NCBI GenBank assembly: GCA_017508965.1
Contig: JAFWQT010000139.1
Span: 1 to 37,854 of the forward strand
Direction of reading: 5' to 3'
DNA length: 37,854 nt
Source: Prevotella sp.
Lineage (GTDB): Bacteria; Bacteroidota; Bacteroidia; Bacteroidales; Bacteroidaceae
Shown here: positions 22,233 through 24,002 of the stretch, one piece after another
Position numbering within the stretch: the stretch's first letter is position 1
Layout of the letters: each line of letters starts with the position of its first letter
The notes under the pieces: generated by a model
The model's database searches: none
The model's input: only the letters and a program-made list of their open reading frames with translations
Told to the model about the DNA's origin: nothing
Program-made: the position numbers and the translations under genes

Positions 22233-22321
22233 CGGTTGGCAGTTCAGAATAATCCTTACATTTCTGCTTCAGCAATCCGAAGCAAAGTAGCGAAAAGAAT
22301 CAGGGATTTGGGTGGATAAAA

Positions 22322-22497
22322 TGCTTTTAAAGTGCAGAAAGCAGGCTTCCGCCCATCAAAAGACAGGCTTTTAAAGTTCAAATAATAGGCTTTTGAAGTT
22401 CAAAAGATAATCATTTAAAGTTCGGATAAAGTTCATTTAGACTGTAATTGGGCCCTAATTACAGTCTAAAAGCCTATGATTTAAAGTTCAGATGATT
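22322..22497. repeat. Eight degenerate 22-bp units in strict phase
   Basis: Cutting 22322-22497 into 22-bp pieces places a shared core, TTTAAAGTTC or a one-base variant, at the same position in five of eight units (starts of the core: 22326, 22370, 22392, 22414, 22480). Several units begin GGCTT. Units 6 and 7 (22432-22475) carry instead a palindrome with 14-bp arms (22436-22449 and 22457-22470) around GGGCCCT, in phase with the rest. An extra half-phase copy of the core end (ATAAAGTTC, 22426-22434) lies 11 bp from a full copy. No long reading frame crosses it. Confidence 0.75.
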
Positions 22498-22500
22498 TTT

Positions 22501-22527
22501 GGAGAAAGCCAAAACGCTGCTTTCTCC
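22501..22527 (+). terminator. Hairpin, possible terminator
   Basis: GGAGAAAGC (22501-22509) and GCTTTCTCC (22519-22527) form a perfect 9-bp stem with a 9-base loop. A T-rich but interrupted stretch follows (22528-22544). It is 270 bp beyond porE, so it may end read-through transcripts or a small RNA from the repeat region rather than porE itself. Confidence 0.4.
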
Positions 22528-22551
22528 TTCTAAAGGTTTTATTATCAATAA

Positions 22552-22662
22552 GTTGCAAAAAACGTCTCAAAACTCGCGTATTTGCCGCCAAAAGTACATT
22601 TGATGAATTTCGCGCGAGTCTCAACGCACCAAAAATCAGAATTATCTTGACGTTTCTTCAAC
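22552..22662. repeat. Nested inverted repeats, possible structured element
   Basis: An outer imperfect inverted repeat pairs 22552-22566 with 22649-22662 (GTTGnAAnAAACGTC type), and inside it ACTCGCG (22572-22578) pairs perfectly with CGCGAGT (22613-22619). The centre (22589-22602) contains back-to-back -7-like boxes for both strands. It could be a small RNA, a MITE remnant or a protein-binding region. Sequence from here to 22754 has no gene. Confidence 0.45.
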
Positions 22663-22754
22663 TTGCCTTATACAAAGATAAAGCCTCTTCGCCCAATGAG
22701 TTTGGACGTAAGACAGGTTTTTATAATGAATAATGCAAGAAAAAGGGGCGGAAG

Positions 22755-22786
22755 TTTGCATTTGTGCGCGCTATGTCGTACTTTTG
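22755..22786 (+). promoter_or_regulatory. Promoter of the HGSNAT/NagX-like gene
   Basis: TTTG at 22755-22758 and TACTTTTG at 22779-22786 are separated by 20 bp, fitting the -33/-7 pattern. Transcription should start at about 22792, leaving a 13-base leader before the ATG at 22805. Confidence 0.65.
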
Positions 22787-22804
22787 TAAAATAAAAAAAA
22801 GATT

Positions 22805-23884: not shown

Positions 23885-23892
23885 TTTAATGT

Positions 23893-24002
23893 AGAATGTA
23901 GAGTGTAGAATGTAGAATTATGATAACCGGGCAAGCCCAGAATCTGTGCTAAAAACTGCCTATAAAAGTAATCATAATTCTACATTCTACACTCTACATT
24001 CT
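23893..24002. repeat. Perfect 32-bp inverted repeat made of heptamer units
   Basis: Arms 23893-23924 and 23971-24002 are perfect reverse complements over 32 bp, with a 46-bp spacer. The left arm is built of GTAGAAT/GTAGAGT heptamers ending in TATGAT, as in the array at 1505-1601. The element fills the gap between two convergent genes (stops at 23884 and 24009), so transcripts from either side would fold a 32-bp stem. There is no U-tract of the classical terminator kind. Confidence 0.85.

Follow-up and report, generated by a model that had tools for sequence, protein, structure and literature searches.

The window (the whole stretch of 37,854 nt that was analysed) comes from a draft genome (G000) of 2.80 Mb in 188 contigs that is 71% complete, and it contains a single array with a period of 22 bp. 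This array forms the middle of a longer, repeated, non-coding intergenic element of about 430-470 bp (approximately positions 22243-22708), which lies between two co-directional genes (Table 1). The stop codon of the upstream PD40/OmpA gene is located 10 bp before the element, while the downstream membrane acyltransferase gene is preceded by an octamer that is likely to be the -7 box of its own promoter.

Table 1. Genes and sequence features at the array locus (window coordinates)
Feature	Position	Strand	Remarks
Upstream gene, PD40/OmpA protein, 685 aa	20175..22232	+	Pfam OmpA 3.8e-21, PD40 3.3e-16
Left-end block, consensus ATCAAAATCCCCGACAAATT	22243..22264	+	Conserved start in the 12-copy alignment
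Predicted transcript, ~420 nt	22243..22666	-	Deduced from the predicted promoter
22-bp array; unit = 17-bp dyad CTTTTGAAgTTCAAAAG + 5-bp linker	22322..22497	.	
Central palindrome, 35 bp, 14-bp arms	22436..22470	.	7 bases between arms; in phase
Core TCAAAACTCGCGTATTTG	22567..22584	+	Degenerate inverted partner CGCGAGT at 22613-22619
Right-end motif AGAATTATCTTGACG	22638..22652	+	12-copy alignment
-7 box TATCTTTG of putative inward promoter	22673..22680	-	In 12/12 copies
19-bp dyad CGTCCAAACTCATTGGGCG	22690..22708	-	9 bp before the -7 box; 19 genomic matches versus 0 for the reversed control
Probable -7 box TACTTTTG in a promoter proper to the downstream gene	22779..22786	+	With TTTG at 22761-22764; from sequence
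Downstream gene, HGSNAT-type membrane acyltransferase, 359 aa	22805..23884	+	Pfam HGSNAT_cat 2.2e-6

Arrays of shorter units are found elsewhere in the window. Heptamer arrays of GTAGANT occur in both orientations at 1504-1595, 23888-23918 and 23977-24002, and octamer arrays of ACTCCCAA / CTAAACTC at 1624-1664 and 1823-1843. The sequence GTAGANTGTAGANTGTAGANT has 42 overlapping matches on 15 contigs of the source genome (up to one mismatch; control 0).

The 22-bp period of the window array is real. Within the intergenic stretch 22233-22804 the best identity over 66 bp was 0.71 at lag 22 and likewise at lag 44, while 500 dinucleotide shuffles of this stretch gave at most 0.56 at any lag from 10 to 59, so that 0/500 reached the observed value. 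Matches to TTTAAAGTTC with up to two mismatches start at 22326, 22370, 22392, 22414 and 22480, all in a single phase modulo 22, and the additional half-phase copy reported in the preliminary description is present at 22425, offset by 11 bp. Since the slots at approximately 22348, 22436 and 22458 are devoid of TTTAAAGTTC, the eight units of that description are better read as eight slots with five recognisable units. The 35-bp palindrome described as keeping the phase was recovered, and the array folds back around it with 44-base arms that are 70% complementary. The 21-base arms 22374-22394 and 22468-22488 reach 86%, and the right half is in part the inverse of the left. The register of 22 bp is fixed, but to call it exact helical phasing is loose by about one base over two turns of B-DNA; 22 bp correspond to two B-DNA turns plus about one base, or to two A-form turns.

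A search of the source genome returned 12 copies of the element including that of the window, with 79-100% identity over 127-182 bases. All 12 pass the lag-22 test, so that neither of the two refuting outcomes named in the preliminary description, a spacing that other copies do not conserve and a decayed, one-off tandem repeat, was observed. Alignment of the copies with their flanks exhibited a common left block, the array, a block containing TCAAAACTCGCGTATTTG, the right-end motif and the 19-bp dyad, while the stretch preceding the dyad varies in at least 4 of the 12. By eye, the two ends of the element in this alignment do not form an inverted repeat, and no target duplication is apparent. 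The core motif matched 24 times in this genome (up to three mismatches) versus once for the reversed control, some of the matches being inverted partners within one element. A similar layout around a different array was recognised by eye at six further loci of the source genome (L033, L040, L041, L048, L051 and L053), among which only L041 passes the lag-22 test. Orthology of the site was examined and rejected: among 29 congeneric loci located 3' of the upstream gene, three of which offered just 0, 63 and 206 bases, the core motif was found in none and the downstream neighbour was kept in none; two of these loci (L208 and L210) have, by eye, another 22-bp array there. A G/C-rich palindrome of the type CCCCTCCCCAAGGGAGGGG is situated beside array elements in several genomes (L155, L167 and L169 in G016, L200, as well as L005, L008 and L011 in G000). 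Comparison of 12 loci with Rfam gave 15 matches at E<=1, all of them under the gathering score, and a known structured RNA family was rejected on the basis that no match reached a curated score.

The right end of the element resembles a promoter that faces inwards. The dyad, written as CGTCCAAACTCA(T/C)TGGRCG, was matched in the source genome with up to three mismatches, and at 18 of its 19 places a TAnnTTTG sequence, the Bacteroidetes -7 box, follows at a distance of 8-9 nt. Twelve of these 18 modules form the right ends of the element copies, one in each, and point inwards on the minus strand. Among the seven dyad copies outside the elements, the module lies 134-297 nt before ORFs of 173 (L339), 215 (L345) and at least 407 codons (L344), while three copies (L346-L348) are followed, under the same ORF rule, by short ORFs only and one (L349) has no -7 box. 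The module was seen in the G000 element family only. At L339 and L344-L348 the dyad CGTCCAAACTCACTGGACG stands exactly 9 nt before TAnnTTTG and resembles the promoter of a regulon with a putative regulator. Because the genes on the left side of the copies lie on either strand, the element is not the constant leader of one gene; the inward promoter, present in every copy, would instead produce an RNA of about 420 nt from the minus strand.

The minus strand also carries signs of a conserved structure. The consensus structure of the 12-copy alignment contains 69 pairs on this strand, and the observed values were reached by 0/500 shuffles for cells paired, 2/500 for pair changes on both sides, 18/500 for further pair types and 0/500 for the covariation score. 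For the plus strand the consensus contains 40 pairs, and the same four measures were reached by 59, 115, 233 and 198 of 500 shuffles, not above the shuffled background. These shuffles ignore the kinship of the copies, and 12 copies are few. Fold z-scores were compared between strands on 84 of 113 sequences, those kept once near-duplicates had been removed. An RNA made from one strand should favour that strand through its G-U pairs, yet the scores were equal for the 57 named elements (-2.99 versus -3.00) as well as for 22 elements of G016 (-1.45 versus -1.40), which is the chief argument against a general RNA reading. A one-strand RNA as the rule across genomes was rejected on this absence of strand preference. 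For the five sequences from the source genome the plus strand scored -4.58 and the minus strand -6.07, with the minus strand lower in 5/5 (p 0.06).

The core motif extends beyond the source genome. An exact scan for CTCAAAACTCGCGTATTTS with one genome per species returned 93 stretches, and the 80 of these that were listed are labelled Prevotella, Hoylesella, Hallella, Leyella, Xylanibacter and uncultured Prevotellaceae, together with one "Bacteroidaceae" and one "Ruminococcus" MAG. Autocorrelation of the region 50-330 bp upstream of the core, for the 78 of 82 core matches with at least 330 bases upstream and no N, gave z values of 30, 26 and 14 at lags 22, 44 and 66, followed by lag 21 (z 11) and lag 9 (z 8); these values treat elements as independent, and several come from one species. 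Strong arrays (at least 62% over 66 bp) were detected at lag 22 in 27/78 elements and at eight other lags in 0/78, compared with 3/79 random pieces of the same loci. The 80 named loci (611 kb) contain 31 lag-22 arrays in 31 loci and 25 at lag 44, with at most four at any other tested lag. In the closed 3.2-Mb genome of G016 the core has 49 matches (control 1). Among 22 of these 49 loci, the left-block motif AAATAGAA is present in 17 and TTTGTAA lies downstream in 15; their units differ from those of the window array, and 3/22 pass the strong-array test and 9/22 a weaker one. By eye, many rumen Prevotella (L058, L060, L062, L065, L077 and others) have the core CTCAAAACTCGCGTATTTC downstream of a gene ending in ...KELIFYILH, where it follows a terminator-like hairpin with no clear array, as if it were a single fixed site.

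Arrays of the same pitch are also found when the core is disregarded. A blind scan of lags 10-59 over 400 kb each of three genomes (88-bp window) had its peak at lag 22, with 43 regions in G100 (one of them a run of N), seven in G077 and eight in G016. With a 66-bp window, 110 lag-22 arrays were detected in seven congeneric genomes (2.0 Mb; 1.98 Mb without N), namely 49 in G100, 16 in G091, 15 in G077, 13 in G016, eight in G061, five in G133 and four in G040, while none was found in an outgroup sample of 200 kb in total (G031 and G025). The best of lags 20-24 was 22 in 110/110 arrays, and all 110 are intergenic even though our own gene caller assigned 80-88% of the DNA as coding. The arrays fall into 33 unit families. 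Dyad symmetry (column-shuffle p<=0.05) was present in 92/110 arrays, a count weighted by the 49 arrays of G100, 31 of which are in one family, and in 22/33 families when the first array of each was taken. Between genomes, units matched at best rotation in 10.28 of 22 positions, compared with 10.34 for shuffled units. A common 22-bp pitch combined with unrelated letters indicates that spacing rather than sequence seems to be kept. As far as the seven genomes reach, the window array belongs to a class whose members conserve the pitch while their sequence is free, usually with two-fold symmetric units. In 200 kb of G091 (L305-L314), eight lag-16 regions were observed beside the 16 period-22 arrays, so that 22 is the dominant and not the sole period.

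Closely related copies illustrate how such arrays change. In one sister pair (G003/G042, 40 kb each, 88-89% identity over the aligned parts), inspection by eye revealed one site with a nearly unchanged array and a second at which both genomes have an array in the corresponding position. At this second site the order and orientation of units have diverged further than the nearest flanking sequence, with the 22-bp register preserved. In 33 aligned copies of one G100 family the arms are fixed, and the centres that they enclose belong to a few types. Between units 1 and 3, three neighbouring pairs are found in two intact forms (20-21 and 5-6 of 33 copies) and are broken in seven, with the minus strand behaving alike. 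Point covariation was examined in G100 and rejected, as the G/C edge base does not covary, although the centres of units are exchanged as a whole and a single double change is present (L234).

The arrays are unevenly distributed among gene contexts. Among gaps of at least 150 bp, an array was present in 36/106 convergent, 55/313 co-directional and 14/127 divergent gaps. Convergent and divergent gaps differed (p 2.5e-5), a result to which G100 contributed 20/28 convergent and 5/26 divergent gaps; without G100 the values were 16/78 versus 9/101 (p 0.03). No difference was detected between co-directional and divergent gaps over all genomes (p 0.11), and in G016 only 1/13 convergent gaps held an array. 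The median distance from the array centre to the gene 3' end was 95-278 bp in three genomes.

Y1 transposases (PF01797) are present in three of the five genomes searched (G016, G006 and G018) and were found neither in the 71% complete source genome nor in G012. At L153 in G016, an IS200-like Y1 gene (1401-1941) is located between two lag-22 arrays (906-1160 and 2105-2187), and at L154 of the same genome a Y1 fragment has a lag-22 array nearby. Lag-22 arrays thus accompany 2/5 Y1 loci, against a background of 90/794 sliding 3.3-kb windows of G016, while the core motif is in 0/5. We regard these two loci as a lead towards a REP/RAYT-like system or an insertion preference.

Several known repeats share features with the element. 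A literature search, with subscription literature outside its scope, yielded as relevant the reports on PINSR and BrickBuilt, a MITE review and a paper on P. gingivalis repeats (PMC5771137). According to the available part of its description, PINSR of P. intermedia is intergenic, non-coding, present in high copy and without terminal inverted repeats, with a 188-bp consensus, 177-184 copies and a function given as unknown (PMC4755523). The window family is likewise intergenic, multi-copy and, with its ends judged by eye, without terminal inverted repeats. The 22-bp family of G100 (two chromosomes), at approximately 33 copies per 400 kb, fits the copy number available for PINSR, a comparison of density and not of sequence. 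PINSR differs in sequence and species, no internal 22-bp pitch is stated in the text available, and the window family has a predicted promoter. The BrickBuilt MITE, as far as the accessible text describes it, has a 23-nt unit and IS5-like terminal inverted repeats and occurs only in P. gingivalis and P. gulae; the same paper cites 41-, 23- and 22-nt tandem repeats in P. gingivalis W83 (PMC4596501). Its intergenic array of short units with leader and tail, its predicted long stem-loops and, in that text, its lack of an Rfam match resemble the element, but the period here is 22 and the element ends are, by eye, not inverted. A 22-bp pitch common to unrelated units is stated in the available text of neither the PINSR (PMC4755523) nor the BrickBuilt paper (PMC4596501).

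With its intergenic, palindromic units in both orientations the class is also reminiscent of REP/BIME. In enterobacteria these are alternating palindromic units between genes, often at 3' ends, with larger units, a conserved sequence and no fixed 22-bp pitch. A further difference is that the search of the 71% complete source genome recovered no Y1 (RAYT) partner, although L153 in G016 has one. Iteron arrays of plasmid origins are protein-read direct repeats spaced by about 22 bp, one per replicon beside a rep gene, whereas the arrays described here are dispersed and chromosomal and comprise many unrelated units.

For the source genome we tentatively favour, at a little short of even chances, that the window array works as a structured RNA, that is, as a small RNA gene, given the sequence evidence of an inward minus-strand promoter in all 12 copies and of minus-strand covariation. 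In this model, transcription would start from a regulated promoter at the right end (22708-22673, minus strand) and run leftwards for about 420 nt across the core and the array. The dyads of this RNA would form both internal and mutual base pairs about the central hairpin, producing stems with linkers every 22 nt, the length of two A-form turns, so that a binding protein or enzyme might meet an identical face at each unit. Candidate roles include 3'-end protection, termination against a convergent gene and titration of a protein. The equal fold scores of both strands across the other genomes favour symmetry at the level of DNA, and a protein lattice on DNA is the main rival of the structured RNA, next to REP-like mobile repeats as the other main one. 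In such a lattice each dyad would be the site of a dimeric DNA-binding protein, and the 22-bp pitch would let neighbouring dimers touch as on iterons or tandem operators. The array would then serve as an accessory site for a mobile element, or else as a site of nucleoid or boundary function. The dyads in two thirds of the unit families, the one pitch of all arrays, the absence of strand preference in folding and the occurrence of units in both orientations are consistent with this, while the 11/33 families without a dyad at p<=0.05 and the unrelated families within single genomes (for instance eight in 200 kb of G091 and six in 200 kb of G061) weigh against it, and we consider a lattice unlikely on balance but worth serious attention. 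Several unrelated families in one genome would call for many proteins or for one that does not read sequence; they argue against a single sequence-specific protein and not against a reader of geometry.

Palindromic units that a transposase copies in trans from one intergenic site to another, without benefit to the host, would explain the intergenic location and the dispersed copies with common ends inside one genome. Many unit families are of low copy, however, and neither an inverted terminal repeat nor a target duplication was seen by eye; the core motif is missing from the five Y1 loci, and the source genome with its 12 copies (71% complete) yielded no Y1 gene, as did G012. It is on account of the arrays at two of the five Y1 loci (on both sides at L153, and at L154), compared with the window background, that we rate a mobile repeat of the REP/BIME type as improbable rather than lower. 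The enrichment in convergent over divergent gaps, which persists without G100, would be expected of a two-way transcription terminator or of mRNA 3'-end hairpins between genes, but the distance of the array centres from gene 3' ends, the lack of a difference between co-directional and divergent gaps and the single occupied convergent gap of G016 make this quite improbable. Functionless minisatellites generated as 22-bp duplications by slippage are very improbable. Some arrays in G061 and G091 are long and nearly exact and a third of the families have no dyad, yet one pitch recurs across unrelated units while other lags are low, the lag-16 regions of G091 notwithstanding. Drift is disfavoured by the 12 copies that pass the lag-22 test and by the recurrence of the period in unrelated arrays, as had been supposed at the outset; on the choice posed at that time between lattice and structured RNA, the evidence points both ways. 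The promoter of the window family makes the structured-RNA reading directly testable by RNA-seq.

It is unusual for spacing to be conserved when sequence is not, and such a pattern points to something that reads geometry. We propose, as a possibility that is plausible but less than probable, a class of the Prevotella group in which selection keeps the 22-bp pitch and usually the symmetry while leaving the sequence free. This would imply a reader of spacing and symmetry, either a protein that senses DNA-helix geometry or RNA duplexes whose linkers recur at intervals of two A-form turns, and PINSR would be one species' version. Prevotella inhabits the mouth, the gut and the rumen. If the proposal is true, the "species-specific repeats" scattered across Prevotella would fall into one class, which the simple lag-22 test can detect even where sequences are dissimilar, and the geometry reader that is still missing would be a concrete target in a common genus.
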